Shown in pieces: positions 1 to 64,000 of a stretch of 64,000 nucleotides of DNA. The notes below the pieces were generated by a model. That model was not told where the DNA came from, searched no databases, and saw only the letters and a program-made list of their open reading frames with translations. Position 1 is the stretch's first letter; each line of letters begins with the position of its first letter. Source of the DNA: Deinococcales bacterium (GTDB taxonomy: Bacteria; Deinococcota; Deinococci; Deinococcales; JAAFIG01); assembly GCA_013298595.1 (NCBI GenBank), contig JAAFIG010000010.1, positions 69,260-133,259 of the forward strand. Reading direction: 5' to 3'. The translations under genes and the position numbers were made by a program.

Positions 1-215
1 ACTTTGGTTTTAATTGGGATGCTCTCGAGGATTGTTTGACCGACTGCTCATGGATGACCAAAAGCCTAGGCATTGTGTTTATTTTGAGCAACATTGCATT
101 ACTCGAAACTCGAGAAGCCAACACACTAGCCACCTTCCTCGAAATTATTGAAGTGGTCAGCAAAAAACGTCACGCACAAAAACTCGAGCCACTGTACTTC
201 ATTATTGCTGAATAG
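1..215 (+). CDS. Barstar-family ribonuclease inhibitor, C-terminal part (5' end outside window)
   Basis: An open frame enters from the left edge (first full codon at 3) and ends at TAG 213-215. It has the barstar (PF01337) core: an F-G-F-N-W-D-A-L-x-D-C-L-T-D segment near the window edge, then a hydrophobic strand, a helix rich in L and E, and a final strand L-Y-F-I-I. Barstar-like proteins bind and block barnase-type secreted or intracellular ribonucleases, usually as immunity proteins. Only the last ~70 of the usual ~90-120 residues are here, so the start and any toxin partner lie upstream. No partner gene is visible downstream; the next gene is on the other strand. Family call is from motif recognition. 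Confidence 0.75.
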   Translation, partial: FGFNWDALEDCLTDCSWMTKSLGIVFILSNIALLETREANTLATFLEIIEVVSKKRHAQKLEPLYFIIAE

Positions 216-342
216 AATGCACATCAATGCTTTGCTCGAGCACCCATTTGCGCCGCTGACCAATGTTTAAGTCCATAAACCATCATACATGAGGTGAAAG
301 CTCGAGTGGTAAGCACCAAATTATCCAGTATTTTCAAGTAAA

Positions 343-3300
343 TTAGTACATCGAAAATTCAACCTGTTGAGTCTCCACATTCCAAACGCGAATACCACGT
401 GATGACGCAATTGCTAACCACGGATTATTCGGATGCCAACTGAGATCATTTGCTGCACCTGAGATCTCAAATTTTGTACTTAAATCGGCAGTCCGAAGGA
501 TCCTTGTGGTGATACCTGCATTAAAAATTTGTGTTTCAATCACAGCAATGTTTTGCTGATCCATACTCCACTCGATGGATTTATACTTAACTTGAGCACT
601 AGCACATCGCGCATTATTTTGATTTGTGATATTAATAATACAAAAGGTACCATAGTAGTTATCCTGTGTTAAGCCAAAAGCCAACGTTTGCGAATCCGCA
701 GCCCACGAAAAATCAAGAATAACTTCGTTTGAGTTGCCCTTATTATAAATAACCTTGTTCTCTAGTAAGTCGTACACTTCTAATTGTTTTGTATTGACAG
801 TAACATAAGCAACTTTATGCCCATTATCGCTCCAAGCTACTTTCGTAGCTGGTTGATTAGAAATTCTTCTTAGGATTTGCCCAGAGTTTGCATCACGTAC
901 CACAGTAAAATCCGTAGCATCTGATGTCACAATTTGTTGACCATCAGGACTCCAATCAAATACCAGCCCAAAATTGATTTCTCGAGTTGAGCCACTGACC
1001 ACATTCCAAATAGCAGCATTACCAGCCCATAACTGAGTATTATCAGGATTCCAATTCAGCATGACCTGAGATCCAACATCTAAAGAGGTTAGTTCTTGCT
1101 GAGTACCCGCATCAAAAACCCATGTTTTTTCACCACTAGCAGCTAGTTTTTGACCATTAGGACTCCAAATAACTTGGTTATAAATTCTCGGTTGCACACT
1201 AATACTAATTTCATCAAAAATTGTGGGATCATCCCGTAAACTGGCACGAACTGTCACAGCAGTTGGGGTTGTTGGGGCGACAAATTTTTGTACACCATCA
1301 CCCTGGGGGATAAGAGAACCTGTACCTGTTAGTGTCCAATCAAGAGCAGCAACAGCTTTATCATGCGACGCAAATGCTTGTAAATTAATGGATTTCCCTT
1401 GCTGCAAAACAATATCTTTGGGAGTAATCACAACAAATTTATTAGCGGGATCAAATTTCTCTGCAACAATAGCCCATATCTCATCTTTGGTTAAACCAAT
1501 GTCAAAAACACAATTACGAAAAATTTCTGGTGTAATAATTTTTGCCGTCTTACAAGCCTTCTCTGCTAAAGCACGATCCTCAGCAGACAAGGCTGTAATA
1601 CCAAACATTGAATAGTATTTTCGATCTCGAGGAAAACTTAGGTCATTAAAATTAGTGTTACTCTCGCTATTCTCATAATCAAATAAGGATTCTGCATCAG
1701 AAATTCGCCAAGCTTCAAGAAAATTATTCAACTTAGAAAAATCAATAGGTGAACGAATTAATGTGCCATTTCGTAATCGAAAATCATCTAAACCATTACC
1801 ATTAGCATCACCTAATAAGCCCCTAATCTGCCCTCGAGTTGAAGGTGGAATCATTACTTCTAACGTGTCAATAGCCGTTCCATAATTTCCCAACTTAATA
1901 GCGTAACCTGTCGAAGTTGTCAGACTAACAGTTGAACCGTTTAAACTAAGTTTTATACCAGTACCAACATCATAAAGACCATTAACTTGAACACTCTGCC
2001 CATTGACCTTGAAAAACCATTGACCAGACTTAAAATAAATTCCAATTCGGTACCCATTTAAGCGCATAGCAATGGCTGTAGTAGCAGACCAAACTTGGGA
2101 ATCTTGTACATCCACAAAACGGGCTTGCAATTCAAAACCATCGGATAATAAAGACTTAGCTAGAATAAATTCACCAGCTTTTTGGGCTTCAAAATGCGTA
2201 CCATCAAACGAGTACATATGTGGGTCGCTTTGCACACCACCGATAGCTGGTCGGTTTGTTTCTTCGGGCGTTAGCACAGGTTTAGGTGTTTCTTTGCATT
2301 TTAAGTCCACAGGCACTTCGGCATACACAGTCGGAACAGCATCGGTACTGAGCAGTTCAGTAGAAGTTGAATAATCCCCAGGACCATTCGGGCAATCCAA
2401 TAACATATCCACGAAATCTCTTCCATTGGCTGGGACTTCCCGATCTTCAACAATGACATTGCCAAAAGGTGATTTGGACTTTGCAGTGTATTTCAGAGAT
2501 TGAGCAGATTTATTCTTAATGGTACTGGTGGCAAGCCGTTTTGCGTACACAAACTTACCAGTCTCATCGGTGTAACCTTCAATTGTTTCTTTGATAGGGC
2601 TAGAAATAACATCTAAATACGCATTTAGAGTTCTGCATTGCACATTCACCGCTACGCTAGTACTCTCGAGAATAGCCACTCCATTATCATCGGTTGCTCC
2701 TGTACTATACACAATATTAATATATCTTGTGAAATTACCTGAATTCGAGCAAAAGTACTGAACACTTGTGTTATTCGAGGGGTAATTATTTGAGTCTTTA
2801 TTGGCTTGGGTGACTGTTAAACTATCTTCGCTTGTGGGTATAGTAAATCTGTAATCCCGAATTAAACGGCTTTCAGGTGTGGGTGGCACAATCACATTTT
2901 GTAAACGCAAAGCGGCACTGGCATTATTATTCCCAGCATTGGCATTACCAAGTGGGTTGTTAGGGTTTAATAAGCTCGAGTCAATGATGTTCTCGGTGAC
3001 ATAGTATCGTTTGAACTCGAGAGTGGAATCTACATCTCCAGTGTTTTTAATTGATAGGATTTCAGTGTTTGTGGTTTGTCCGACTGTACCACTCAAAGAA
3101 ATACTCGAGGGAACAGATATTGCAGGTGTGACAGAAGTTACCCGAATCGTAAATTTATCAGGTGGAACTGCACTAGTATCTAAACGATTCCATTGTTGAG
3201 TACTTGATACAACAGCAGTGTATTCCATACCATCTTTAACGTTGGTTACGAAAGCATCACCAGGATTATTATTGCATTTATTGCGTAATGGTGGACTTTG

Positions 3301-5706
3301 ATACCAAGTATCTTTTAAGGCTGCGGAATCTGTAATAACTTGGAGTTTATAAATTCTTCTTTTTTTGTTTGGATTAAGAAATCGAATTGTAGCGGCTCGA
3401 GTTTGCAAAGAGTAAATGGGTTCGTCTTTCCATAAGTTTGCTACACCAAAATTTGTTGAAACATCAATATCTGCTTTACGAGAAGCATAATCATCAATTA
3501 TTGTGTTATTAATTTCTATAGTACAAGGTGCATTAAACATGCCGTATTGCGGGTTCTTTTCAAAAGCCTGATTCTTAGCCCAGTAATAATAAGCTCGTTC
3601 TAAACCATTTGGGAATCCAGCTGCGATTAAACCAGTATTTGCATTATTGATTGGTTGAGTTAAACCTGTTTTGAACACATTTTTTAAGTAAGGAAGCCCG
3701 ACACCAAGCCAATTACCAGCGAAAACCCAGAAGTCTTGTGCTCTATAGGCTTGGTCTGTTTCTCTTGAAGATGCGTTAAGCAGAATATCCACTTGATGTA
3801 GTGAACGATCAGTTGTTCTTTGCATGCTTGTACGACTTGATTTTTCAGCAGCAACGGCTGTACCTTCCATTATCCAAGCCCTTTTTGGGCGTAAAACATT
3901 ATCTGGTTCTACCCATCTACGTTGTACAGCATGGGTTAATTCATGTTTTATGACATCGTCTATATTTAAGTTGGCTGTAATTGTCCAACTAGTGTTTACA
4001 CAAATAACCACTTGACCATCATCGGCATTATAGTAAGCAAGTGTATCACCAGTACACTGTTCTGAACCATAAAAAACTAATTCGTGATTTGCTCGTAAAA
4101 TCGGTTTAATTGTCATTTCAAAATCAAAAATAATATTTTTTAGTTTTCTAATTAAGATATTTTGATAGGTATTTGAAACTGCTTCAGGACAATCTAAACC
4201 TGTGGTATTGCAACCAAAAACGATGTCGTTTTCATTGAGATATATCGGTATACCTTGAAAATTTTCTACTTGCTGAAGAGATAACCGATTTAAAGTCGCT
4301 ATTGATGTTTGTTTTCTTCTGACAAGCACAAAAATACCATTTGGATTAGCAAGTAGTGTTGTAGCACGAGAGATATAACCTGCTACTAAATCTTCTCTTC
4401 GTGTTGTCCAAACACTTTTATCGAAATGTGAACTAGTTAAGTATGTAGGAACAAATGCAGCAACTCTAAGTGTTTTATCAGACACAAAAGACGCAGGAAT
4501 AGGGAAATCAAAGTTTAGAAGGACATCCGTAATACTGACCACCTTTTCAGAAGTAGTTCCAATTTTTAAATAGGGTCCTATCGCTTCAAATTCGGCGGGT
4601 AAAGCTAGTTCTAGCTTTGCAGGATCAATAGATTCAACATAGACTTCCACAGGTTTCTCGATTGAATTTTGTGGAGCGACAATATTGACTCCCCAAGGTG
4701 TTGAAAAAGAACTATTTGGAGAAAGAATACCAACAGCTCGAGTACCAAATGGTAATTGCCCACCACCAAGCACATCACTGTTTAAATGACTCGAGACTTT
4801 AGCAATCGTTGTACTTTGATTCAAAGTGACTTTACCACCAGCCACAACACTACCCTCGAGATTACTACTCTGGTTAATAGTGATATTACTCGTTGCCCAA
4901 AGTGCCATCTTCCCACTCGAGCTTTGATTCAAAGTCATGTTCTGCCCAGCAATCACTGCCAGTTCACCACTCAAGCTTTGCATTCCATTATTATTACTAG
5001 TCAAGTTCTTCGCTGTGATAAGACTACTCAGTCCTGTACTCTCGAGTTTTCCATTCAAGGTTAAATCTTCATCTGTAATAATTCTCGAGTTGTTTAATAC
5101 TGTGGTTTGGTTGAACCCAGCTCCTTTAGCAATGATTCTTGTATTCTCGAGGGTTAAACCTTTATTACTATTGATGGTCTCTTGAACTATTAGTGTGGCG
5201 TTTTTAATGGTAGCAATGGTGTTTAAGTTGAGGCTACCTTTGACCAGTACAATTTTATTATCGAATCGGTTGGTAATATCACTGCTCGAGTTCAGGGTTA
5301 AACTACCTTGAATCGTACTGGTAGGAATTGCGGTGTACTTGGTTTTTAAAGCAGTGATATCTGGTTTTGGAACAGTAACAATTGCACTAATAAATTTGGG
5401 TTTACCATTCAAACAAAAACCCATACCACTATTATCAGCACAACTTGCAGCATTGGTACTCGAGACAACTCCACCATTTAAAACTATATTTCTCGAGTTG
5501 AGGATTAAACCAGTATTAGCATGGACACTCGAGTTGTTTTGCAATGTAAAACCTTGGTTACTTTGGAAGGTTAGCCCAGCGATGATACCGTGAAGCATGA
5601 TATCTCGAGGGGTGGTTAAAGCTTGGGTTGATACTTGTTGTTCTTGTATTGCTGGAGCTTGAGGACAAGCGGTGAGGGCGGATGCCAGTAATGCGGCTGT
5701 GAACAT
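343..5706 (-). CDS. Giant surface lipoprotein: beta-helix, HExxH metalloprotease, VWD and WD40 domains
   Basis: About 1787 aa. The start is chosen at 5706 because an AAAGGAGG ribosome site sits 5 bases upstream; an in-frame ATG at 5772 has none. A lipoprotein signal (ALTAC, Cys ~14) opens the protein. Residues ~40-310 are short L-N-x-S repeats like a right-handed beta-helix. Residues ~315-450 carry a domain shared with the neighbouring gene (motif QLPFGTR). Residues ~588-614 hold HELTH followed by W-I-M-E-G-T, a gluzincin zinc-protease signature. A von Willebrand type D domain (SDPHMYSFDG to GLLGDANGNG) spans ~1157-1330, an Ig-like domain ~1425-1510, and WD40-like blades with SPNG/SPDG turns fill the C-terminus. 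Predicted outer-surface protease or adhesin; substrate unknown. The protease part lacks the CTCGAG word common elsewhere. Confidence 0.8.
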   Translation of the reverse strand: MFTAALLASALTACPQAPAIQEQQVSTQALTTPRDIMLHGIIAGLTFQSNQGFTLQNNSSVHANTGLILNSRNIVLNGGVVSSTNAASCADNSGMGFCLNGKPKFISAIVTVPKPDITALKTKYTAIPTSTIQGSLTLNSSSDITNRFDNKIVLVKGSLNLNTIATIKNATLIVQETINSNKGLTLENTRIIAKGAGFNQTTVLNNSRIITDEDLTLNGKLESTGLSSLITAKNLTSNNNGMQSLSGELAVIAGQNMTLNQSSSGKMALWATSNITINQSSNLEGSVVAGGKVTLNQSTTIAKVSSHLNSDVLGGGQLPFGTRAVGILSPNSSFSTPWGVNIVAPQNSIEKPVEVYVESIDPAKLELALPAEFEAIGPYLKIGTTSEKVVSITDVLLNFDFPIPASFVSDKTLRVAAFVPTYLTSSHFDKSVWTTRREDLVAGYISRATTLLANPNGIFVLVRRKQTSIATLNRLSLQQVENFQGIPIYLNENDIVFGCNTTGLDCPEAVSNTYQNILIRKLKNIIFDFEMTIKPILRANHELVFYGSEQCTGDTLAYYNADDGQVVICVNTSWTITANLNIDDVIKHELTHAVQRRWVEPDNVLRPKRAWIMEGTAVAAEKSSRTSMQRTTDRSLHQVDILLNASSRETDQAYRAQDFWVFAGNWLGVGLPYLKNVFKTGLTQPINNANTGLIAAGFPNGLERAYYYWAKNQAFEKNPQYGMFNAPCTIEINNTIIDDYASRKADIDVSTNFGVANLWKDEPIYSLQTRAATIRFLNPNKKRRIYKLQVITDSAALKDTWYQSPPLRNKCNNNPGDAFVTNVKDGMEYTAVVSSTQQWNRLDTSAVPPDKFTIRVTSVTPAISVPSSISLSGTVGQTTNTEILSIKNTGDVDSTLEFKRYYVTENIIDSSLLNPNNPLGNANAGNNNASAALRLQNVIVPPTPESRLIRDYRFTIPTSEDSLTVTQANKDSNNYPSNNTSVQYFCSNSGNFTRYINIVYSTGATDDNGVAILESTSVAVNVQCRTLNAYLDVISSPIKETIEGYTDETGKFVYAKRLATSTIKNKSAQSLKYTAKSKSPFGNVIVEDREVPANGRDFVDMLLDCPNGPGDYSTSTELLSTDAVPTVYAEVPVDLKCKETPKPVLTPEETNRPAIGGVQSDPHMYSFDGTHFEAQKAGEFILAKSLLSDGFELQARFVDVQDSQVWSATTAIAMRLNGYRIGIYFKSGQWFFKVNGQSVQVNGLYDVGTGIKLSLNGSTVSLTTSTGYAIKLGNYGTAIDTLEVMIPPSTRGQIRGLLGDANGNGLDDFRLRNGTLIRSPIDFSKLNNFLEAWRISDAESLFDYENSESNTNFNDLSFPRDRKYYSMFGITALSAEDRALAEKACKTAKIITPEIFRNCVFDIGLTKDEIWAIVAEKFDPANKFVVITPKDIVLQQGKSINLQAFASHDKAVAALDWTLTGTGSLIPQGDGVQKFVAPTTPTAVTVRASLRDDPTIFDEISISVQPRIYNQVIWSPNGQKLAASGEKTWVFDAGTQQELTSLDVGSQVMLNWNPDNTQLWAGNAAIWNVVSGSTREINFGLVFDWSPDGQQIVTSDATDFTVVRDANSGQILRRISNQPATKVAWSDNGHKVAYVTVNTKQLEVYDLLENKVIYNKGNSNEVILDFSWAADSQTLAFGLTQDNYYGTFCIINITNQNNARCASAQVKYKSIEWSMDQQNIAVIETQIFNAGITTRILRTADLSTKFEISGAANDLSWHPNNPWLAIASSRGIRVWNVETQQVEFSMY

Positions 5707-5796
5707 AAAACCTCCTTTCTTTCTTCGGGAAGTGGCTTTAAGAATTGTAATTGGAGTTAGACGAAAAAACATAAGGAGAAGTCTACCCTTGAGCTA

Positions 5797-5853
5797 GAAA
5801 AACCCTTGTTATCTTTGACCACTCGAGATTTCAAAACGCAATTCACGCTGTGC
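5797..5853 (-). repeat. Upstream repeat, copy 1 (leader of the giant lipoprotein gene)
   Basis: About 57 bp match 7068-7123 with only a few differences (shared blocks GACCACTCGAGAT and CAATTCACGCTGTG). Both copies lie upstream of paralogous minus-strand lipoprotein genes, so they are duplicated control regions or a retained trace of gene duplication. Confidence 0.75.
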
Positions 5854-5878
5854 GAATTAGCTATTAGTTCAAATTATC

Positions 5879-6982
5879 TTATCGTCTTATGAATCCAAAT
5901 ACGACTGCTTTGTCTTGTTCAGAAATCAAAAAGGTATTACTGAAAACAGCATATTTACCACTTTGATCAAAACGTCCCGAAATTAGCCAGATTGGTGTTG
6001 TAGAAGTTGTATCTGAAAAAGTCCAACTTGGATGCAATGCAATCGGAATTACCGTCTCAATCGTTTCACCGTCAGGTAATGGAACACTAAAAAGAAAAGT
6101 ATTTTTCCCATCAAGTGTAGTAGTATCTTGTATTGCGCCAACACGAAATAATGTACCAACTAATGGTCGTGAATATGGCGGCAAATTCGCGGGATTTTCT
6201 ACTTTCACAAAAACAGGAATGTTTTCTGTCAAAGAGTTAGGTGGAGTCGTAATTTGTACACCTAACGAACTAATCCAAGGAGTATTTGGTTTTAGAATCC
6301 CTTCTTCTCGAGTGCCAAATGGTAATTGTTCAGAGTTCAAAGGGGTTTGTACATTTTTTTTAATAAACCCAAAAACAAGTGCACCGTCCGCTTCTGAAAC
6401 GAGGAAATCTATTCCAAAGCTTAAAGTTTTTCCATTTTCGATAAAACGACTGGGAAATGACTTCAGCCAAATGGGTTGATCTGATGAGTTCTCAGTAGTT
6501 TCGCTAGAAATCAACCATTTCGGAAAAAGTATAACAGGAGTAACTGAATCAGATGTTTCCCCTTCAGGAAGTGGGATATTGAAAGTAAAGTTTTTGCTAT
6601 AATCAAGAGCTGCCGTTTCTTGAGAAGCACCTACCCGATAAAGTGACCCTACAAATTTTTCAGCTAGTGGTGGTAAATGAACTGGATTCTCGACTTTTAC
6701 AAAAACAGGAATGTTTTCTTTTAATGCGTTAACTGGGGTTGAAATTTGTACACCCAATGAGCTAATCCAAGGAGTATTTGGTTTTAAAATTCCTTCTTCT
6801 CGAGTACCAAATGGTAATTGTCCATCTTTCAGCACAGCATTACTTAAACGGCTCGAGGTTTTACTTATGGTTTGTGCTTGGTTCAGTGTTGCTTTGCCAC
6901 TTGCCACAGCACTCCCCTCGAGACTCGAGAAGTGCCAACAAGTCATAAGTACGGATGCCAGCCAAGCAGCGGCTTTAAGCAT
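5879..6982 (-). CDS. Paralogous surface protein with two tandem QLPFGTR domains
   Basis: 367 aa. A signal peptide with a possible lipobox (LMTC, Cys 15) is followed directly by the tail of a beta-helix (L-E-G-S, then T-L-N-Q) that aligns with residues ~284-310 of the giant lipoprotein next door. Two tandem copies of a ~155-residue domain follow, each starting QLPFGTREEGILKPN and ending in a V-F-G-F-I strand; the giant protein has one divergent copy. It looks like a shortened paralogue in which most of the beta-helix and all protease, VWD and WD40 parts are missing while the shared domain has duplicated. The point where similarity to the giant gene starts is a CTCGAG word (around 6917). No catalytic motif is seen. 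Start preceded by AGCAGG. Confidence 0.7.
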   Translation of the reverse strand: MLKAAAWLASVLMTCWHFSSLEGSAVASGKATLNQAQTISKTSSRLSNAVLKDGQLPFGTREEGILKPNTPWISSLGVQISTPVNALKENIPVFVKVENPVHLPPLAEKFVGSLYRVGASQETAALDYSKNFTFNIPLPEGETSDSVTPVILFPKWLISSETTENSSDQPIWLKSFPSRFIENGKTLSFGIDFLVSEADGALVFGFIKKNVQTPLNSEQLPFGTREEGILKPNTPWISSLGVQITTPPNSLTENIPVFVKVENPANLPPYSRPLVGTLFRVGAIQDTTTLDGKNTFLFSVPLPDGETIETVIPIALHPSWTFSDTTSTTPIWLISGRFDQSGKYAVFSNTFLISEQDKAVVFGFIRR

Positions 6983-7067
6983 AAAACCTGCTTTGTATAC
7001 TTAGTTGGTTACTTATAGCTGGCAGAATGAACCACAAAATCATGTTAAAAGTGTACTCTATAGTTGA

Positions 7068-7123
7068 GAAAACCCTTATTGTTTTTGACCACTCGAGATA
7101 TCAAAACACAATTCACGCTGTGC
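7068..7123 (-). repeat. Upstream repeat, copy 2
   Basis: Partner of the repeat at 5797-5853; it lies in the 216-bp gap upstream of the paralogue starting at 6982. A promoter or regulator site shared by both lipoprotein genes is plausible but not proven. Confidence 0.75.
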
Positions 7124-7198
7124 CAGAAAAATCAAAGCATATACTAAGGTTACGAATTCGCAAGCTCATCTAATTTAGTTTTGACTTAAAGCCAGACT

Positions 7199-8224: not shown

Positions 8225-8228
8225 AAGA

Positions 8229-15594: not shown

Positions 15595-15600
15595 AAACAA

Positions 15601-15638
15601 AATTTCCACCTCGAGACAATTATCTCGAGGTGGAAATT
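15601..15638. terminator. Strong hairpin terminator between convergent genes
   Basis: Sixteen-base stem AATTTCCACCTCGAGA with its complement around CAATTA, then T-rich sequence on the + side and A-rich on the other. It ends the protease-nuclease gene and probably works both ways. The stem embeds CTCGAG on each arm. Confidence 0.88.
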
Positions 15639-15649
15639 TTTATACACTT

Positions 15650-18003: not shown

Positions 18004-18007
18004 AAAT

Positions 18008-18049
18008 AAATTTTCCACCTCGAGACAGTTATCTCGAGGTGGAAAATTT
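18008..18049. terminator. Duplicate of the convergent-gene terminator
   Basis: AAATTTTCCACCTCGAGA pairs with its complement across CAGTTA. The stem here gained a compensating base pair relative to copy A, so the structure is kept by selection even though the + strand gene upstream is only a fragment; it still ends the gene at 18060. Confidence 0.85.
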
Positions 18050-18059
18050 TTATCCATTT

Positions 18060-23558: not shown

Positions 23559-24797
23559 ATGTCCAACTCTATGAAATCTGTTTTACTCGAGGCATTCCAA
23601 GCAGCTGTAGCCGCTGCTCAACCTGCTGCTGCCATCCCATTGCACTTACCCAGCCCACCCAAAGGCAAAACCATGATTATTGGTTTTGGTAAAGCCGCTG
23701 CAACAATGGCTCGAGCCTTAGAGCAACATTATCCAGCGCCTCTCGAGGGAGTGGTGGTCACACGTTACGGACATATTCTCGAGCCATGCCAACAGATTCG
23801 GGTACTCGAGGCAGCCCACCCAATCCCTGATGCAAATAGTGTTTATGCAACTCAGCAAATTCTTGCGGCTGTGCAAAATCTACAACCCGAAGACTTGGTT
23901 ATTTGCCTTGTTTCAGGTGGTGGAAGTGCCTTACTTTGTGCACCCGATGGTATTACTCTCGAGACAAAAAAACTGGTAACACAAGCATTACTTTCCTCGG
24001 GTGCAAGCATCCAAGAAATGAACGTGATTCGTAAACACCTTTCCTTAGTCAAAGGTGGGCGCTTAGCCGTTGCTTGCCAACCTGCTCGAGTTCATACCCT
24101 AATTGTCTCGGATGTGGTTGGTGATGATTTAAGCAGCATTGCTTCAGGCGCAACCGTACCAGACCCGAGCACCTACGCCGATGCCCTCGAGATACTGCAA
24201 CGTTACAGCATCAACATCCCCGAAGTGCAATACCTGCTCGAACATCGAATGCACAGCGGTACTGATACGCCAAAAGCAAATCATGCAGCCTTTACTCGAG
24301 TGACAAACAATTTAATTGTCACCAATGGCATTGCCTTACAAGCCATCGAAAAAACGCTGACTCAACACAGTATCCAATCACAAATTCTTTCTGATAGCAT
24401 CGAAGGTAATGCTCGAGTCGCAGCCCAAAGCCACGCACAAGCCTTAGAAAAACTCGAGCCAAATACTGCCCTATTATCTGGAGGTGAAACCACTGTGCTT
24501 GTCCAAGGTCATGGGCGCGGCGGACGCAACTTAGAATTTATACTAGCCCTTGCCCTCGAGCAACCCAATTGTTATGCCTTAGCTGCCGATAGTGACGGTA
24601 TAGATGGCTCGAGCAATGCTGCAGGCGCGATCATTACCCCAGATACCCTGAATCGAGCTGCGGCACTGGGGTTAGATGCCAAAGCGTATCTCGAGAATAA
24701 TGATGCACACACATTTTTCGAGCATTTAGGCGATTTAGTCATAACAGGTGCAACAGGAACAAATGTGAACGATATTCGTATTCTGATTCAAGCCTAA
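23559..24797 (+). CDS. Glycerate 2-kinase (GckA/MOFRL family)
   Basis: 412 aa. Phosphorylates D-glycerate to 2-phosphoglycerate; the family was long annotated hydroxypyruvate reductase (TtuD). Motifs: G-F-G-K-A-A-A-T-M-A near 40, V-S-G-G-G-S-A-L-L near 120, R-K-H-L-S-L-V-K-G-G-R-L-A near 160 (catalytic Lys region), and the C-terminal MOFRL domain with S-G-G-E-T-T-V, G-R-G-G-R-N-L-E and D-S-D-G-I-D-G. Start at 23559 chosen because the earlier in-frame ATG would overlap marR; ATG 23571 is also possible. Fourteen CTCGAG words occur inside this gene. Confidence 0.9.
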   Translation: MSNSMKSVLLEAFQAAVAAAQPAAAIPLHLPSPPKGKTMIIGFGKAAATMARALEQHYPAPLEGVVVTRYGHILEPCQQIRVLEAAHPIPDANSVYATQQILAAVQNLQPEDLVICLVSGGGSALLCAPDGITLETKKLVTQALLSSGASIQEMNVIRKHLSLVKGGRLAVACQPARVHTLIVSDVVGDDLSSIASGATVPDPSTYADALEILQRYSINIPEVQYLLEHRMHSGTDTPKANHAAFTRVTNNLIVTNGIALQAIEKTLTQHSIQSQILSDSIEGNARVAAQSHAQALEKLEPNTALLSGGETTVLVQGHGRGGRNLEFILALALEQPNCYALAADSDGIDGSSNAAGAIITPDTLNRAAALGLDAKAYLENNDAHTFFEHLGDLVITGATGTNVNDIRILIQA

Positions 24798-26715: not shown

Positions 26716-27570
26716 ATGCACCCTTTACTGCGTTTTTTGATTGCCCCACCACTCGAGGAAAATCTCGAGCGTTTAACAGCTGCGGTGAGTGAAAAAACCG
26801 TGTTAATAACAGGTGCATCTTTTGGTATTGGCGAGGCAACAGCACAATTACTTGCCAGTGCAGGTGCAACAGTTTTACTACTGGCACGCACCACAGAAAA
26901 ACTCGAGAGCCTTGTGCACACCATTAGTAGCAGCGGCGGTACAGCCTTTGCTTACTCCGTGGATTTAAGCAAACTCGAGGATATTAAAAGCATCATGGCA
27001 CAAATTCAACTCGAGCATCCACAAATTGATATTGTTATTTGTAATGCTGGAAAATCTACTCGTCGTAAAATCACGGATTCTTTTCTTCGTAACGACCTCG
27101 AGCGTTTAATCGCACTGAATTTCTCGAGTCCAAGCTCAATGCTACTGTGTTTATTGCCACGAATGCTCGAGCAAGGCGGTGGGCAAATTATTAATGTTTC
27201 CACTGTTTCGGCAAAGTTACCCGGTGTGCCAATGTGGGCAGCCTATCAAAGCAGCAAAACAGGTTTTGATCTTTGGCTTCGTGCTGTTGCTAACGAATTA
27301 CGACCACAAAAAATTCTAGTCTCGAGTATTTATATGCCTTTGGTCCGAACCCGTATGAGTTCTGCTCATCAATTTGCTAATGCACCTGCTTTAACACCAC
27401 TCGAAGCTGCACAGACCATAGCGTATGCCATTGTAAAACGCGTCCCTCGAGTTGCACCGTGGTGGTTGCGCTGGGCAGAATTGGGTGCTGTGATTCTCGA
27501 GTACCCTGTGCAACTTTTATTAACTTGGTTATTTCGGTATAGCGTCTCGAGAGCAGAAAAAAATACATAA
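26716..27570 (+). CDS. SDR-family oxidoreductase with membrane-associating C-terminus
   Basis: 284 aa from ATG 26716 (a GTG one codon earlier is also possible). T-G-A-S-F-G-I-G loop, C-N-A-G-K-S, catalytic Ser in N-V-S-T-V-S-A and Tyr-Lys in Y-Q-S-S-K, so the active site is intact. The C-terminus (W-W-L-R-W-A, then L-L-L-T-W-L-F-R-Y) is hydrophobic and could sit in the membrane. Eleven bases separate it from the acyl-ligase-like gene, forming an operon; this pair is reminiscent of lipid-modifying SDR-FadD clusters, but the substrate is unknown. Twelve CTCGAG words in 855 bp. Confidence 0.85.
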   Translation: MHPLLRFLIAPPLEENLERLTAAVSEKTVLITGASFGIGEATAQLLASAGATVLLLARTTEKLESLVHTISSSGGTAFAYSVDLSKLEDIKSIMAQIQLEHPQIDIVICNAGKSTRRKITDSFLRNDLERLIALNFSSPSSMLLCLLPRMLEQGGGQIINVSTVSAKLPGVPMWAAYQSSKTGFDLWLRAVANELRPQKILVSSIYMPLVRTRMSSAHQFANAPALTPLEAAQTIAYAIVKRVPRVAPWWLRWAELGAVILEYPVQLLLTWLFRYSVSRAEKNT

Positions 27571-56173: not shown

Positions 56174-56191
56174 TTTTGCCTTTAGTGATGG

Positions 56192-56243: not shown

Positions 56244-56254
56244 TTCTAATCTAT

Positions 56255-56950
56255 TCAAACTCCTTTTTCCTTCTCGAGCCACCGCGCAGGATTACCTTCA
56301 ATATAATCACGGCATCGCTCGAGTTCAGCATTATTACGAACAATACGATCATAAAACCCGCGTTGCCAAAAACGTTTTTCAAATGGCATCCAATTGTGTT
56401 CACGCACCCCACGAATGTATTGATTGGTGGTGATGGATTTGAATGCACTAATCACATTACCCAACACAGGATTCATTGCCATATTATGTGTAGGGGCGAC
56501 CCTTGTGGTCGCCCTGTGCGACACGAAATCGTTCAAAACAGTTGCATCAATATTGTTTTTCACGTCATTGAATACAGGCACGCTGATAATCGAATCGTTA
56601 TTAGTCACGCGGGCGGGTACAAGACCCGCCCCTACGGGGTTATGGACAATTGATTTGTTATTAACGCCAACCACATTTTCATTATTTCCATTCAATACGA
56701 TAATGCCGTGAACATGGTCTGGCATAATAATAAATGCGTCTAAGGTGATATCAAATTGATCGGTTAATTTCTGCCATGTCTCGAGAATCATTTGACCTGC
56801 AATATTCAGTTGCACCCCTGTTGGCGTGACCTGTCCAAACCATTCAGAGTTGCGTAATTGGCTGCAAATCGTCACGAAATACGCCCCTGCACTCAAGTAA
56901 TCGTAGGTTTCGAGGCGCATCGGTTTGCGTTGGATGAGATGTGGTGTCAT
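56255..56950 (-). CDS. REP-associated tyrosine transposase (RAYT)
   Basis: 231 aa. Y1 HUH-type fold: I-M-P-D-H-V-H-G-I (the HUH His pair) and F-W-Q-R-G-F-Y-D-R-I-V-R-N with the catalytic Tyr. RAYTs mobilise or maintain REP sequences in their genomes. Two REP units lie inside this gene in frame, encoding the V-G-A-G-L-V-P-A-R and R-A-T-T-R-V-A-P-T stretches. Its ATG overlaps the stop of the hydrolase gene (ATGA), so it is embedded in the fad operon. Three CTCGAG words inside. Nothing looks broken. Confidence 0.9.
   Translation of the reverse strand: MTPHLIQRKPMRLETYDYLSAGAYFVTICSQLRNSEWFGQVTPTGVQLNIAGQMILETWQKLTDQFDITLDAFIIMPDHVHGIIVLNGNNENVVGVNNKSIVHNPVGAGLVPARVTNNDSIISVPVFNDVKNNIDATVLNDFVSHRATTRVAPTHNMAMNPVLGNVISAFKSITTNQYIRGVREHNWMPFEKRFWQRGFYDRIVRNNAELERCRDYIEGNPARWLEKEKGV
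56490..56514. repeat. REP unit inside the RAYT gene
   Basis: GTAGGGGCGACC, CTTGT, GGTCGCCC; coding for the R-A-T-T-R-V-A-P-T stretch on the minus strand. Confidence 0.78.
56609..56635. repeat. Second REP unit inside the RAYT gene
   Basis: GCGGGCGGGT, ACAAG, ACCCGCCCCTAC; encodes V-G-A-G-L-V-P-A-R on the minus strand. Confidence 0.78.
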
Positions 56951-57705
56951 AGGTGTTCCTCGAGCCAGTTTTTCATGTCCTCCAGCACAGGTATTTTTTC
57001 TTCAAATAACCAATGCCCTGAACCTATGTATTCTTTTAATTCTATGCTCGAGTATTTTTTAACCAGTTGTCTCGAGCCTTGTACAATCACAATTCGGTCG
57101 TCTGTGCCGTGCAAAACCAGTATTGGTGCGGTGATTTTTGCAAAATCTACCCATGTTGGTTTGCCTTTGCCTGTTGCGCCAAAGCCTGCTTCAAATACAA
57201 CTTTGCCTGATTCTGGTACGAGTAATGCAAATAATTCTTTTTGCCGATTCAAAGGTAAATTGTTAAATAAGGCGTACTGGGCACGCTCGAGGCTTGGGTG
57301 TATCTGAGATTTTTCCCAGAATTTCCAACTGAATAACGCATGGCTGAGTGAACGTACCGAACTGATAGCAAACCCGTTGATGCCCGCAGCAGCGGCTGGG
57401 GCGAATAAAACCACCGCTCGAGGTTGGATTTTCACGGCGACCAATTGCGCCAGTAATCCACCCATTGAATGCCCGATCAGGACGGGTGCAGTCTCGAGCT
57501 TTAGGTTTTGAATATATTGAATTATAAATGTCACGTAATCGTGATGTGATTGTCTGGCTACTGCTTGGGCATGACCACCATTTTCATGAAATGGCAGGGT
57601 TGGAGCATAACAGGTATACCCTGCCATCTCGAGCACTTTTTGAATAGGCTCGAGGGTTGCGCCTGTGCTCCACATTCCGTGAATGAAAATAATTGGTGGT
57701 TTCAT
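56947..57705 (-). CDS. Alpha/beta-hydrolase
   Basis: 252 aa from ATG 57705. I-F-I-H-G-M-W-S-T-G oxyanion strand, nucleophile elbow G-H-S-M-G-G, acid H-G-T-D-D-R, and G-S-G-H-W-L His. Esterase or thioesterase-type; located in the fad operon, so a fatty-acyl ester or CoA substrate is possible. A palindromic REP at 57719-57738 lies just upstream. Confidence 0.88.
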   Translation of the reverse strand: MKPPIIFIHGMWSTGATLEPIQKVLEMAGYTCYAPTLPFHENGGHAQAVARQSHHDYVTFIIQYIQNLKLETAPVLIGHSMGGLLAQLVAVKIQPRAVVLFAPAAAAGINGFAISSVRSLSHALFSWKFWEKSQIHPSLERAQYALFNNLPLNRQKELFALLVPESGKVVFEAGFGATGKGKPTWVDFAKITAPILVLHGTDDRIVIVQGSRQLVKKYSSIELKEYIGSGHWLFEEKIPVLEDMKNWLEEHL

Positions 57706-57718
57706 ATTGCCTCGGGTG

Positions 57719-57738
57719 GGGCGAGGCATGCCTCGCCC
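57719..57738. repeat. Palindromic REP between hydrolase and fadN-like gene
   Basis: GGGCGAGGCATGCCTCGCCC, fully symmetric, flanked by GGGTG and TACAG. Same G/C-armed style as the other REP units. Confidence 0.75.
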
Positions 57739-57750
57739 TACAGTTTGGGT

Positions 57751-60018
57751 TTAGTTACGCAGTGGTTTGCCTGTTTTTAGGGTGTGGGCAATGCGTTCTT
57801 GGGTTTTGCGTGTGCCGCATAAGTACAAGAAGGCTTCGCGCTCGAGGTCTAAGAAGTGTTGCTCGGGTTGTTTTGTTTGGCGGTTCATATTTCCGCCTGC
57901 GAGGATTTTCGCAAGTTGCATGGCAATAATTCCGTCGTGTTCGCTGGCTTGGCGGCTGAGTTGCAATCCATGAACTGCCACTTTTAAGTTGGCAATGGCA
58001 CTTTCGCCCATGGCGATAATCTCGGCTCGAGGTTGGGGTTGCACATAGTCTTTGGCTAGCTCGAGCACCTTGGTTTTTGCGTCGGACAGGAGTCTATCGC
58101 GGTTCATGGTGATGCCGTCGGAGGCTTTTAAGTACCCAAGTTCGCGTGCCTCGAGTGCTGATGTACTGGTTTTTGCGAGGGCGATTTGTTCAAAGGCTTT
58201 GCGAACTGCACTAAATGAGTCTTCGTTGGGGAGTAGTTGTTCGGTGAAGCGTGCCAGCATTTCGGTTGTACCGCCACCGCCTGGAATTAAACCAACGCCA
58301 GCTTCGACTAAGCCCATATACAATTCGGCATGGGCTTGCACGTGGTCGGCGTATAATGAAATTTCGCAACCACCACCAAGGGCTAATCCAAAGGGTGCAG
58401 ATACGGTTGGGAATGGGCTGTACCGCATGGATAAAACAAATTTTTGAAATTGACGGATACTCAGGTCTATTTCGTCAAAATCGCCTTCTTGGGCTTGTAA
58501 TAACAGCACTGCAAGGTTGGCTCCTGCACTAAAATTATCACCTTGATTACCGACCACTAAACCCGCAAAGGATTCTGCTACCACTTTTTGGGCGTGCTGC
58601 ATGGCACGAATCATGTCTTCGCCAAGGGCATTGGCTTTGCTATGAAACTCGAGCAGTGCCACACCATCGCCAATATCCACGAGGCTTGCGCCTTGCCATG
58701 CTTTGATGGTTTTGCTCGAGTCGCGTTTAAGGTCGCGCAGCACAATCAAACCGTTCTTTTGACCTGTGGCATCGTTGTAAAAAGGTTTGCCTTGCTCGAG
58801 TAATGCTGGTACATCCAAACCGAGGGCTTTTACGCCTGCTATGACGGTGTCGTGACCAAGTGCATCGGCAAGATCAAAGGCTCCGATTTCCCAGTTAAAA
58901 CCCCATTTGAGAGCGTTGTCCACCTCGAGTACCGTGTCGGCACAGGCAGGAATATTTTTTGCAGCAAACCAAATTAAACCGTAAACATTGCGACGCACCA
59001 ATTCGCCAATATTGTTCTCGAGTTTGAGTAGTGCTTTGATACGCGCAACAGCTGTTGGTAAGGCTCGAATATCATCTGGAACTCGGACTTTACCATTGTC
59101 TTTGTACTCGAGGGTTTCGTAATCAAGCGTTAAAATAAGGCTTTTACCATCTTTACCTTTAACTCGCTTAAAGAATCCCTCACCTGTTTTTTCGCCTAAA
59201 CGCCCAGCTTCGACCAGTTTTTCCCAAATCGCAGGTGGTGCATAATCAAAACCCGTACTCGAGCCAAGATTCTTTGCGACGGCTAAACCAATATCTAAAC
59301 CCGATAAATCGTTGGTACGAAAACTGGCACTCGAGGCTCGTCCGACCAAAGGTCCAAGAATGGCATCGACTTCGTCTGGACGCAATCCAAGTTCGACAGC
59401 GTCGCGCACGGTATGCACCATGCCCCAAACACCAATGCGGTTAGCAATAAACCCAGCCACATCCTTAGCCACAACCACGCCTTTGCCTAGCACTTTATCG
59501 CCAAATTCAGAAACCGCTGCAATCACATCTGGGCGAGTATCGGCAGTTGGAATTACCTCGAGCAGTTTAAGGTACCGTGGCGGATTAAAAAAGTGCGTGC
59601 CGACAAAACGCGCTTTGAATTCAGCACTGCGGTCTTGGATTTGTAAGTGCATGGGGATGCCGCTCGAGTTACTACTGACAATCGCTTTAGTACCCGTCGC
59701 TTCGACTTTGCCCCAGAAATCTTGTTTGACATCTAAGCGCTCAAGAATCGCTTCAAAAATCCAGTCCACACCTGTTAGTTTGCCAATATCATCCTCGAGA
59801 TTCCCAATTTGAATCAGTTGTGCAGCTTTGGGGTGCATAAAGGCAGCGGGTTTAGCTTTCAATGCCCGCTCGAGACCTTTTTTGACAATTTCGTTTTTAT
59901 CTGCGCCAGTTCCAGCAATATCGAGCAGCAACACTGGAATTCCTGCATTTGCGAGGTGAGCGGCGACAGCAGCGCCCATTGTACCAGAGCCGACAACAGC
60001 GGCTTTACGAATCTTCAT
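57751..60018 (-). CDS. 3-hydroxyacyl-CoA dehydrogenase / enoyl-CoA hydratase fusion (FadN-like)
   Basis: 755 aa. The dehydrogenase is N-terminal (G-S-G-T-M-G-A-A-V-A-A-H-L NAD fold; G-T-H-F-F-N-P-P-R-Y-L-K and N-R-I-G) and a crotonase-fold part is C-terminal (~420-650: F-S-A-G-A-N-L and G-L-I-P-G-G-G-G-T oxyanion region). This order is the FadN type, the reverse of E. coli FadB. Steps two and three of beta-oxidation; thiolase at 54468 completes the pathway. AAGGAG before the ATG. Heads the operon. Confidence 0.92.
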   Translation of the reverse strand: MKIRKAAVVGSGTMGAAVAAHLANAGIPVLLLDIAGTGADKNEIVKKGLERALKAKPAAFMHPKAAQLIQIGNLEDDIGKLTGVDWIFEAILERLDVKQDFWGKVEATGTKAIVSSNSSGIPMHLQIQDRSAEFKARFVGTHFFNPPRYLKLLEVIPTADTRPDVIAAVSEFGDKVLGKGVVVAKDVAGFIANRIGVWGMVHTVRDAVELGLRPDEVDAILGPLVGRASSASFRTNDLSGLDIGLAVAKNLGSSTGFDYAPPAIWEKLVEAGRLGEKTGEGFFKRVKGKDGKSLILTLDYETLEYKDNGKVRVPDDIRALPTAVARIKALLKLENNIGELVRRNVYGLIWFAAKNIPACADTVLEVDNALKWGFNWEIGAFDLADALGHDTVIAGVKALGLDVPALLEQGKPFYNDATGQKNGLIVLRDLKRDSSKTIKAWQGASLVDIGDGVALLEFHSKANALGEDMIRAMQHAQKVVAESFAGLVVGNQGDNFSAGANLAVLLLQAQEGDFDEIDLSIRQFQKFVLSMRYSPFPTVSAPFGLALGGGCEISLYADHVQAHAELYMGLVEAGVGLIPGGGGTTEMLARFTEQLLPNEDSFSAVRKAFEQIALAKTSTSALEARELGYLKASDGITMNRDRLLSDAKTKVLELAKDYVQPQPRAEIIAMGESAIANLKVAVHGLQLSRQASEHDGIIAMQLAKILAGGNMNRQTKQPEQHFLDLEREAFLYLCGTRKTQERIAHTLKTGKPLRN

Positions 60019-60150
60019 GATTAACTCCTTGGAAGGTAAAGTGCGGATTTTTGTACTAAGTATAAATTGTAGAACACAAAGTCCATAAAATCTAGTTGCT
60101 CGAGTATAAATTCGAGGTTAGACTTGCGATGTTTTGAAATCGGGAGAAAT

Positions 60151-62670
60151 ATGGAACAATTTAATAACCAAACAGTTTTGACTGACCCTGAGATAAATCA
60201 ACCACAAAAAGAATTGCCAAAAGTACAAACTCAAAAATCCTCTATTTCATTTTTTGTCATTTGCCTTGTCATTGGTTTTGTTTTGCCGTTAAAGCCAGTA
60301 CAAGATTTTTTAGCCATCATTACTGGTGGTGCATGGAAACTTTCACCTCAAATCTCCGTTTTTACTCTTTTCCTAATCTTCCCAATGCAACACCTCGCCA
60401 TTATTATTCATGAATTTGGACATCTGGCATTTGGGTGGTTCAGTGGTTTTAAACCAAGCGGTTTAATTCTTTTTCCATTTGCATGGCTTCGTGGGAAAAA
60501 AGGTTGGATGTATCACCAAATTCCAAATGCCCCATTTGGTGGTGGTATGGCAATGATGTACCCAGTTGGATTTACCAGATTACGTGAACGTTTGTTCTGG
60601 TTTACTATAGGCGCGGGGTTAACCAATATCCTAAGCGGACTTTTATCGCTTTACTTAGGTGCTGTATTCGCATCAGGTTTTCAGGGGAAACCTTCAAGTT
60701 TTGGGCATCCTGCTTTTTACTTTGCAATCTTTGGGCTGATTTCGATTTGGATTGGCATTGGTGCGTTAATCCCACGGACATATCAATCCCGTGGTTTTAA
60801 AGGTCTTATGAGCGATGGCAAACGTGCTCAAAGATTATTGCAGAACAAAGAAATTGAGTCAGAATTAGGGTTAATTCAAATTGAAGGTTTAATCTATCAA
60901 GAACAACGCCCTCGAGAATGGTCAAATGCTTTAGTTCAAAAAATTACTTCTGAAACAATCTCAAGTTTTATAGATGTTTCTGGGCTTTATTGTTCTTATC
61001 AATCAGCTTTAGATAACAATGACATTCCCAAAGCAAAGATTCTGCTTGAGCGTGTACTTGAAAATATCCACCTCACATCTGAATTCACCCAGAGTGAGTT
61101 TCGTTATGAAGCAGCTTTTTTTGCTGCGCGATACGAAAAAAATGCAATTACTGCACGAACATGGTTTGAACAAGGCGAACTAACACTGCGTTTAGCAGAT
61201 AACACCCGTTTGCGTGCTGAAACTGCATTGCACATCATTGAAAATCGTCCAGCTCAAGCTTATGCAACTGCTCAAGAAGCTCTTGCTTTGATGGAGGAAC
61301 GAATTGACCAAGGCTTGGTGCGTTTCGAGCGCGACTTGTTCAAGCTCATGACTTTAGAGGTTGAGCACGCCGCACAAATGCCACTCGAGCCGTATCAACC
61401 AATAGAAAAATTAGAACGTAAAATCTTTACTTATATGGGAGCCATTTGGATTGTTTTAGCTTTGTTTTTGCTATTTCAAATGAGTGAAACTATTGCATTT
61501 TTAAAACCTAAAACCGCAATTCCTACTGACATGGGACTTAGACGTGCTCTAAAAGTTGCAGGTATTCCATTTGGCAGTCTGATTGCTCTTGTACTTGCGT
61601 TGCCTTTTGCAAGCATAATCACTCGAGTCGGTTATCTTATAGCTGGTATATCGGCAAGGCTTCGATTTGGCACATTTCATATCAGTGGTTTCTCGAGAAT
61701 TGTACGGCACAACAAAAAACTTAAATTTGCCACATCAGCCATTTCTGCTTTACTAGGGGAAACAGGTTTACTTGCGCCAAATACTAATCAAAGTATCAAG
61801 CGTCAGTTGCAAAAAACCCTTTGGGGTGGCTGGGGTATTTTGGTAGTCCTAGGTACAATTGGACTAGCACTTAACGAGTTCGCTGAACGTAATTTCTGGG
61901 ATCAAAAAGTTGCTATGCAGATCTTACAAATCTGGGGCGTGGAGGGTCGCACATTGCTACAAATATGGGGGATTACGACACTATTGATACCACTCATTCC
62001 TTACGGTTTTTTGCTTATTGCGTTTGGATGGCTGTTTTCTTTTCTGAGATTAAACGTTTTTGACGGAGCTTGGCGCTTAGCGTTGATGTACAAAAACGGA
62101 AAAGAAACTGAACGTGAAGCAGCTCGAGTTGCCATTATTGGTGCTGCTACCAACGGTATTCGCCCTCGAGACTGGTCAGAAGATTGGTTAAAATCCGTAA
62201 CCCAAGGTGACCCAATCTGTCCTCGAGATGTGCACATGCTTATCTGTGCTTATTTTGCAGCACTAGACCATAATCAAATTAACCAAGCTCGAGAGTACCT
62301 AGAACGAGCTAGTGCGGCTGCTCATTTTTTACCGTTTCCCTTTAATCGAGCTTTGCTTCTCGAGCAAGTCTTTTACACAGCTTGGTATGCCGAAGATGCA
62401 CAAGCCGCACGAAAAATCTTGCAACACGAATCTGGATACCGAATAGATACAACAAGTTTTCATCGTGTTCTTGCAGCTCTTTATTTTGTGGAAAACAAAT
62501 TAGATCAAGCAAAAGTAGCAATTCAAACAGCTCGAGCAAACATCGCTAAATCACAACATCCTGGCATCGCTATTTTTGAAAAAGATTGTTTGGATCAATT
62601 AGAAATTGCAATGCTCGAGAAAAAATCAAATCTCGAAATCCAAGCATCACAAAATAATCTTGAAGTTTAG
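60151..62670 (+). CDS. Internally duplicated M50-type metalloprotease / TPR membrane protein
   Basis: 839 aa from ATG 60151 (GGAGA before it). First half: helices, then H-E-F-G-H in I-I-I-H-E-F-G-H-L-A-F-G (intramembrane zinc site of M50 site-2 proteases), G-A-G-L-T-N-I-L-S-G, and a ~180-residue TPR-like section. The second half repeats this order with weaker likeness: I-I-T-R-V-G-Y-L-I-A-G sits where HEFGH was, and R-P-R-D-W-S, A-L-D-H-N-Q-I-N-Q-A-R-E-Y-L-E-R-A pair with R-P-R-E-W-S, A-L-D-N-N-D-I-P-K-A-K-I-L-L-E-R-V. So copy 1 keeps zinc ligands and copy 2 lost them. The usual third ligand Asp is not obvious even in copy 1. Substrate unknown. The first 750 bp have no CTCGAG. Confidence 0.75.
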   Translation: MEQFNNQTVLTDPEINQPQKELPKVQTQKSSISFFVICLVIGFVLPLKPVQDFLAIITGGAWKLSPQISVFTLFLIFPMQHLAIIIHEFGHLAFGWFSGFKPSGLILFPFAWLRGKKGWMYHQIPNAPFGGGMAMMYPVGFTRLRERLFWFTIGAGLTNILSGLLSLYLGAVFASGFQGKPSSFGHPAFYFAIFGLISIWIGIGALIPRTYQSRGFKGLMSDGKRAQRLLQNKEIESELGLIQIEGLIYQEQRPREWSNALVQKITSETISSFIDVSGLYCSYQSALDNNDIPKAKILLERVLENIHLTSEFTQSEFRYEAAFFAARYEKNAITARTWFEQGELTLRLADNTRLRAETALHIIENRPAQAYATAQEALALMEERIDQGLVRFERDLFKLMTLEVEHAAQMPLEPYQPIEKLERKIFTYMGAIWIVLALFLLFQMSETIAFLKPKTAIPTDMGLRRALKVAGIPFGSLIALVLALPFASIITRVGYLIAGISARLRFGTFHISGFSRIVRHNKKLKFATSAISALLGETGLLAPNTNQSIKRQLQKTLWGGWGILVVLGTIGLALNEFAERNFWDQKVAMQILQIWGVEGRTLLQIWGITTLLIPLIPYGFLLIAFGWLFSFLRLNVFDGAWRLALMYKNGKETEREAARVAIIGAATNGIRPRDWSEDWLKSVTQGDPICPRDVHMLICAYFAALDHNQINQAREYLERASAAAHFLPFPFNRALLLEQVFYTAWYAEDAQAARKILQHESGYRIDTTSFHRVLAALYFVENKLDQAKVAIQTARANIAKSQHPGIAIFEKDCLDQLEIAMLEKKSNLEIQASQNNLEV

Positions 62671-62686
62671 GGTAACGCGAAAATCT

Positions 62687-62998
62687 TCAGTGCAGATTAT
62701 CAAAGCACTTCTTGCCAAGCTCGGCAAGTTGCCAAGACTTGAGCCATCGGTCTGATTCTTCAAGGTACACCCCATTTGCATCTGGAAACACTCGAGCATA
62801 ATTGATGCTGGGGCAGAAATTCTGGAACGAAAGCACTTCATGGGGCGCGGCTATACTGAAATATCCTTGCATGGCTCGAGCTACAGCAACATCACTAGTG
62901 TGACGCACACTGCTACCATCGGTGAAGCCTAATCCAGCTGCTCGAATTTGTTTTGGGTCACTGCCTTGCACGCCTGTGTAGCCTTGGGCAAGAATCAT
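62687..62998 (-). CDS. Small hypothetical protein, possibly a remnant
   Basis: 103 aa, not recognised. No ribosome site; frame open only to a stop ~17 codons further. The residues look protein-like (G-Y-T-G-V-Q-G, F-C-P-S-I-N-Y-A-R-V-F-P-D-A-N-G, helix at the C-terminus) and the reading frame holds CTCGAG words at the local rate. It may be the 3' end of a larger ancestral gene. Convergent with the M50-TPR gene (16-bp gap), divergent from chrA. Confidence 0.45.
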   Translation of the reverse strand: MILAQGYTGVQGSDPKQIRAAGLGFTDGSSVRHTSDVAVARAMQGYFSIAAPHEVLSFQNFCPSINYARVFPDANGVYLEESDRWLKSWQLAELGKKCFDNLH

Positions 62999-63130
62999 CT
63001 CGAGACGATCAGTGAAGGTGGAATTTCGGTGTGTTGTTTATATTGGTATCTTACAACCCAACCACTCAGAGCCTGTACATCAGTCTGTGTTTTCTTTGTG
63101 ATCATTTAATGCAAAGTGGTGATTCAGGCA

Positions 63131-63150
63131 GATGTAACCGTGGTTACATC
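63131..63150. promoter_or_regulatory. Palindromic operator upstream of chrA
   Basis: GATGTAACC, GT, GGTTACATC: perfect nine-base arms. It lies ~15 bp before a TATAAA box that is itself seven bases before the ATG at 63183, overlapping where a -35 would be. Confidence 0.7.
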
Positions 63151-63182
63151 ATCGGTGTTCAACTTGAAGTATAAATTTGTTC

Positions 63183-64000
63183 ATGACTGAGTCCCCTCAA
63201 GTTTCCTTGTATCAACTCAGTGCTTATTTTTTGCGTCTGGGCGCACTTGGCTTTGGTGGTCCTGTGGCACTTGTGGCTGCCATGCGTCAAGACTTGGTAG
63301 AAACTCGAGGTTGGGTCAGTGAAGAAGAGTACAAAATTGGTTTGGCACTCTCGCAACTTGCTCCAGGTCCATTGGCAGCCCAATTAGCCATTTACTTAGG
63401 GTATTCACAATTTGGGATTTTAGGGGCAACTCTAACAGGAATTTGTTTTGTCTTACCTTCGTTTTTCATTGTGGTGCTGCTTGGTTGGGCATACACCAGC
63501 TTTGGTGGTTTACCGTGGATGAAAGCCGTGTTTTATGGTGTTGGCGCAAGTGTCATTGGAATCATTGCGTGGAGTGCGTATAAATTATCCAGTAAAACCT
63601 TGGCTCGAGATTGGTTGCTTTGGGGAATCGCAGCATCTGCCACTCTTTACACAGTTTTGACCGAATCCGAAGCCGTGATTTTGTTTTTACTAGCGGGAAT
63701 ACTGACTTGGTTACTGAAAGCACCACCTAAGCATTGGGGGCGTTTTATGCCAAGTACCAGTTTGGTATTGCTTGGGGCATTACCAAATATGCAAATGACC
63801 ACGTTACCCAGTATTTTCTGGTTTTTCTTTCAAGCAGGCGCTTTTGTGTTTGGTAGTGGTTTAGCAATTGTGCCTTTTTTGTACAGTGGTGTGGTCAAAG
63901 AAATGGCTTGGCTGACCGATGCACAATTTGTTGATGCTGTGGCAGTCGCCATGATTACACCTGGACCTGTGGTTATTACCACAGCATTTATTGGTTTTTT
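63183..64000 (+). CDS. chrA: Chromate transporter ChrA (3' end outside window)
   Basis: First ~272 residues. The CHR domain signature F-L-R-L-G-A-L-G-F-G-G-P, Q-L-A-P-G-P-L-A-A-Q and G-I-L-G-A-T begin it; a second CHR half (F-F-Q-A-G-A-F-V-F-G-S-G, then I-T-P-G-P-V-V-I-T) is starting at the edge, so this is the long two-domain form. It exports chromate or a related anion. TATAAA lies seven bases before the ATG; the palindrome 63131-63150 suggests regulation. Confidence 0.93.
   Translation, partial: MTESPQVSLYQLSAYFLRLGALGFGGPVALVAAMRQDLVETRGWVSEEEYKIGLALSQLAPGPLAAQLAIYLGYSQFGILGATLTGICFVLPSFFIVVLLGWAYTSFGGLPWMKAVFYGVGASVIGIIAWSAYKLSSKTLARDWLLWGIAASATLYTVLTESEAVILFLLAGILTWLLKAPPKHWGRFMPSTSLVLLGALPNMQMTTLPSIFWFFFQAGAFVFGSGLAIVPFLYSGVVKEMAWLTDAQFVDAVAVAMITPGPVVITTAFIGF

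Follow-up and report, generated by a model that had tools for sequence, protein, structure and literature searches.

Abundance of CTCGAG in the window and the genome

The window, that is, the whole 64,000-bp stretch of DNA analyzed here (positions 69260-133259 of contig C2 of genome G000, an assembly of 4,582,226 bp in 68 contigs), carries the hexamer CTCGAG once per 165 bp. The features of the window on which we rely are:

1-64000, no strand assigned: CTCGAG, 388 dispersed copies, from a position count and shuffles
3402-4736, no strand assigned: longest CTCGAG-free stretch of the window, GC 0.36, within a long ORF for which VWD and beta-propeller matches were found
15596-15643, no strand assigned: terminator-like hairpin, each arm containing CTCGAG, with a run of T after it, seen in the sequence
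18005-18052, no strand assigned: terminator-like hairpin, each arm containing CTCGAG, with a run of T after it, seen in the sequence
23559-24797, plus strand: gene named glycerate kinase by the original prediction, the sole source of the name; 14 CTCGAG
26716-27570, plus strand: gene named SDR by the original prediction, the sole source of the name; 12 CTCGAG

One hundred dinucleotide shuffles of the window gave a mean of 6.14 copies (sd 2.45, maximum 14); under masked Markov models (orders 1-3), 3.4-5.8 were expected. The massive over-representation that had been claimed from the letters alone is thus real, and the copies quoted for the two named genes were counted exactly. The figure of one per 5 kb given there for chance occurrence was generous, the shuffles giving about one per 10 kb. 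The whole genome of G000 averages one CTCGAG per 169 bp, 27,159 in total, versus 15 for GAGCTC, the same letters reversed. In the family of the window the word stands about 60-fold above chance, at about one per 165 bp. Two objections raised beforehand, a near-expected genome count and a single repeated element, are both answered: the count is far above expectation and the copies are dispersed.

In a 553 kb sample of G000, with genes taken as longest-ORF calls, the word was found in all three codon phases, as predicted (1680, 672 and 518 copies), most frequently in phase 0, which reads Leu-Glu. Its density was 5.88 per kb in coding and 5.97 per kb in non-coding DNA, which bears out its reported presence in gaps; the two hairpins, near-identical to each other, do the same for terminator stems. 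Four of the five longest CTCGAG gaps are AT-rich stretches (GC 0.31-0.34), and the remaining one is an 800-aa ORF with GC 0.47. The AT-rich islands are probably recent arrivals.

Distribution among relatives

All four genomes of the family (G000-G003) hold 26,600-28,200 copies each. Across 111 genomes of the order, the same set that a scan at class level yielded, family f2 was rich in CTCGAG with the exception of G007. In sampled sequence, CTCGAG was the top hexamer of G000-G004, G006, G008, G022, G024, G033 and G096, while its observed/expected ratio (O/E) was 1.4-3.0 in G044 (Thermus-like), G105 and G110. G007 showed a depletion to 0.2 of expectation in such a sample, although three relatives of the same family are rich. 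Other public Deinococcales MAGs gave O/E of 25-100, in stretches that were picked for close copies of CTCGAG and whose values therefore lean high. The enrichment is found across the greater part of the order and has been lost several times. Since enriched cultured relatives (which we infer to be Meiothermus and Marinithermus) stand beside a non-enriched genus (apparently Thermus), the order offers a testable comparison.

Acquisition of XhoI was considered as a cause of lower CTCGAG in G012-G014 and rejected: raw counts are lower there, but so is the control word. Two pattern scans for viral contigs revealed no virus with family-like enrichment. Our literature search, thin in its coverage of subscription journals, turned up no paper describing the word in this phylum. 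Outside it, pattern-selected stretches of Natrialbaceae (haloarchaea) spelled Leu-Glu as CTCGAG in 85% of cases, against 35% by codon usage, possibly an independent case of the preference (stretches L325, L333, L337, L361, L367 and others).

Preference at the DNA level and its effect on proteins

CTCGAG spells 67% of the 2,512 Leu-Glu pairs in the 553 kb sample of G000, against 1.6% predicted from codon usage elsewhere; over the four family genomes the figures are 68-75% observed and 1.6-9.5% expected. The dipeptide itself is in excess. Its O/E is 2.30 in G000, where Glu-Leu stands at 1.00 and Ser-Ser at 1.52, and in the four genomes together Leu-Glu ranges over 2.3-2.5 and Glu-Leu over 0.95-1.06. 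Across 15 genomes the Leu-Glu excess follows CTCGAG density (Spearman 0.89, p about 1e-5, kinship ignored). Because Leu-Glu is in excess, Glu-Leu is near 1.0 and the excess tracks density, we conclude that CTCGAG changes amino acids: a DNA word has altered the proteins. The original prediction was right that protein sequence does not explain the word, and the relation in fact runs the other way: here a proteome has clearly been reshaped by a DNA word.

Conservation was assessed in 27 reciprocal-best genes of G000 and G001, which share 74% nucleotide identity; four-fold sites were 43% identical, with 26% expected at saturation. Among the CTCGAG sites of G000 with unchanged amino acids, 78 of 93 were intact in G001. 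The codon pair was kept at 75% of conserved Leu-Glu and at 29% of conserved Glu-Leu. Considering the 85 conserved Leu-Glu pairs, 72% were CTCGAG in both genomes, versus 65% if usage were independent. High usage in both genomes thus accounts by itself for much of the conservation of sites.

Explanations for the enrichment

The best reading of these data is selection at the DNA level; codon bias and passive mutation explain CTCGAG less well. We think it somewhat more likely than not that CTCGAG is a palindrome of the HIP kind, present at about 6 per kb and kept by such selection, and, more tentatively, that it may be a Chi-like signal. Four other explanations were weighed.

Methylation, which the original prediction had put forward, seems unlikely. 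Here an orphan methyltransferase would modify CTCGAG, and the word would be created and kept by mismatch repair whose choice of strand is directed by the methylated site. There are precedents: every HIP-bearing cyanobacterial genome has a cognate methyltransferase (PMC4390886), and CTCGAG methyltransferases occur in Nocardia, where the word is the motif of an orphan enzyme (PMC4752239), in Halorubrum (PMC8112702) and in giant viruses (PMC7253447). The suggested search for an orphan enzyme was run with profiles PF02384, PF00145, PF01555 and PF02086 on family assemblies that are 91-94% complete, but no methyltransferase of these four families, which make up the main DNA methyltransferase types, was common to G000, G001, G002 and G003. 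G008 and G096 had no match to PF00145, PF01555 or PF02086.

The individual candidates for a CTCGAG methyltransferase were each rejected. The sole C5 enzyme found in G000 (C15, L030:1444-2574) looks like a CCGG (HpaII-like) enzyme, being 58% identical in sequence to one that adjoins an HpaII-family nuclease. The TaqI-like enzyme on C11 is unique to G000, which also speaks against methylation; TaqI-like enzymes are present in g13 (family f4), one ground for taking g13 to be probably Thermus, with g12 probably Meiothermus. The enzyme on C254 of G001 adjoins a BsuBI/PstI nuclease, the one on C66 of G000 lies in an island of GC 0.33, and the D12 enzyme on C2 of G000 sits in an operon resembling HerA-type defence. 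The operon at L302:7852-12391 encodes a D12 DNA methyltransferase together with proteins of 433 and 688 aa, and has the look of a putative HerA-type defence system. XhoI-family nucleases (PF04555) were confined to G012-G014 (L468, L469, L470), where they adjoin a methyltransferase that has an SPPY motif; the copy in G108 (L471) is degenerate, with a broken frame, and PF04555 was not found in G000-G008. A further argument comes from decay products. CTTGAG, which decay of 5-methylcytosine would be expected to give, is not foremost among those of CTCGAG, so the central CpG bears no trace of such decay. The proposed role as a methylation target was accordingly not borne out, given the lack of a shared enzyme of the four families, the CCGG-like character of the sole C5 enzyme and this decay pattern.

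A functionless drive is, in our judgement, rather unlikely. Vsr, which acts at CCWGG, is an example of a sequence-biased repair enzyme, and some enzyme of replication or repair that has its own sequence bias could make CTCGAG with no benefit to the cell. Such a process would spread the word alike over coding and non-coding DNA and override amino-acid preference, as is observed. The one-transition variants TTCGAG, CCCGAG and CTTGAG are in 1.5-3 fold excess in G000, unlike most transversion variants, as under steady decay and renewal. Direct conversion, however, predicts that near matches be depleted, and they are not. Selection and strong biased-repair drive predict similar equilibria, save for the effect of neighbouring sites.

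That effect is present. In G000, pairs of CTCGAG spaced by 9-20 bp have 0.37 of the density seen at long range, a level that is reached (1.0) by 60 bp. Likewise, the usage of CTCGAG for Leu-Glu is 0.38 when a neighbouring site lies at 9-20 bp and about 0.77 past 60 bp, beyond which there is no further dependence. The exclusion is weaker in G001-G003, chiefly under 30 bp, and was absent in moderately enriched genomes. Avoidance of hairpins was examined as its cause and rejected, since at short range there is no depletion of other GC-rich inverted hexamer pairs. The exclusion fits steric hindrance at, or redundancy of, a putative bound site. A context-free mutational drive should ignore a site 10-60 bp away, and the neighbour dependence therefore counts against it.

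That the word marks DNA for uptake in a naturally competent lineage is very unlikely. Thermus and Deinococcus are naturally competent, and uptake sequences are words found genome-wide, but one site per 165 bp is far beyond what the uptake of kilobase fragments needs, CTCGAG is a short palindrome, and the enrichment is missing from Thermus-like genomes; the suggestion in the original prediction does not suit so dense a palindrome. Explaining the word by codon bias, by a repeated element or by an artefact of assembly deserves practically no credence: Leu-Glu is indeed the most frequent phase, but codon usage predicts a tiny share of the CTCGAG spellings observed, the density outside genes is equal, and independent genomes and public records concur.

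Avoidance of other palindromes

Relative to expectation, the summed counts of the other 63 palindromic hexamers were 0.32-0.48 in G000-G003, 0.44 in G006 and 0.42 in G033; mirror hexamers were at about 1.0 in CTCGAG-rich genomes. Between 22 and 33 of about 60 palindromes fell below 0.2 in G000-G003, and the set of missing words varied by genome, the O/E of CAGCTG being 1.01, 0.60, 0.03 and 0.00 in the four. Lineage-specific missing palindromes are the usual mark of restriction avoidance. In G007, G105 and G110 the other palindromes were at 0.92-0.96, and avoidance correlated with CTCGAG density (Spearman -0.78, p 6e-4, kinship ignored). The exception is G008, which is enriched in CTCGAG and shows no avoidance (0.94). 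In a small comparison of one sample each, 31 of 64 palindromes were below 0.2 in a HIP1-bearing Nostoc plasmid, versus 10 of 60 in a stretch of E. coli. The joint avoidance of most other palindromes ties such words to restriction pressure. Among shorter words in G000-G002, CCGG is strongly depleted and GGCC nearly absent, the window having a single GGCC.

A candidate reader of CTCGAG

Returning to selection at the DNA level, each copy of CTCGAG would be a recognition site read by a protein of DNA maintenance, a single site being enough within some 20-60 bp. The reader would most likely act in double-strand-break repair or chromosome organization, and a role in recombination (Chi-like, with AddAB) or in chromosome maintenance is the leading inference. 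As a specific and tentative guess, the order's AddAB-type helicase-nuclease may treat the word as a Chi-like signal, in which case selection could act on it because these cells suffer many restriction breaks.

We detected an AddA/AddB-like pair in G002, G004, G006, G008, G012 and G024, and AddA in G033, G096 and G097, with a partial AddA in G000. Overall, 12 of the 15 searched genomes of enriched genera have AddA-type genes. None were detected in the CTCGAG-poor G007 and G110, possibly through divergence. The nuclease-domain search missed the pair in G000, G001 and G003, though G000 carries part of it, which makes these absences weak. An AddAB-type pair is also found in Thermus-like genomes and in G018, and AddA in G105, all without CTCGAG enrichment. 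In cyanobacteria no Chi site is known, and S. elongatus, like T. thermophilus, has AddAB (PMC10269773). Taken together, these distributions hint at a Chi-like role that may be worth testing. The AddA/AddB-like pair recurs across the order (L486:3531-8917, with relatives at L487, L489, L495, L496, L498 and L499), and its AddB is hardly recognized by Pfam or NCBIfam.

A bolder proposal, which we hold to be unlikely, is that CTCGAG serves, as a dense palindromic site, to control how double-strand breaks are processed in a lineage beset by restriction. Selection would there have removed most other palindromes and multiplied CTCGAG, rewriting thousands of protein positions, and HIP1 would be the same solution reached independently.

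Comparison with known systems

Known Chi sites are oriented and not palindromic. CTCGAG shares with Chi (RecBCD/AddAB) the character of a short genome-wide word, but Chi is oriented and rarer, whereas CTCGAG is its own reverse complement and much denser. AddA-type genes were found in most enriched-genus genomes searched, and the pair also in Thermus-like genomes. The DNA uptake sequences of Neisseria and Pasteurellaceae, also over-represented genome words, are longer, non-palindromic and present at about one per kb; CTCGAG is shorter, palindromic and denser.

XhoI and PaeR7I recognize the same sequence, and XhoI-family genes do occur in G012-G014, but they were not found in the CTCGAG-richest genomes, and restriction predicts avoidance rather than excess. 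In Nocardia the same word is clustered near dnaA and the cognate enzyme is present (PMC4752239), whereas in Deinococcales it is genome-wide and no shared enzyme was found.

The closest counterpart is HIP1 (GCGATCGC) with the alternate HIPs, whose function has to our knowledge been open since 1995. The likeness to HIP1 proposed in the original prediction holds for anatomy: CTCGAG is self-complementary, the top word of the genome, dispersed in coding and non-coding DNA and in all codon phases, conserved in position and lost in some relatives, and other palindromic hexamers are avoided in both. HIP1 is described as maintained by selection in the passage of PMC6604393 that cites Xu et al. 2018; for CTCGAG, conserved Leu-Glu codon pairs and neighbour dependence likewise point to selection, drive being the less probable cause. 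There are also differences. Most HIPs occur at about 500-2,500 per Mb (PMC4390886), and CTCGAG, at about 5,900 per Mb, is 2-12 times denser. The word and the phylum are others, the hosts being Deinococcales and not cyanobacteria, and the proteins show a strong dipeptide excess. The cognate methyltransferase present in every HIP-bearing genome has no equivalent, within the four families searched, that is common to the genomes of this family. With CTCGAG, a second phylum has a word of the HIP type, one that exceeds HIP1 in density and for which no methyltransferase link was found among those four families. As an independent and stronger HIP-like case, it is a new, extreme counterpart of HIP1.
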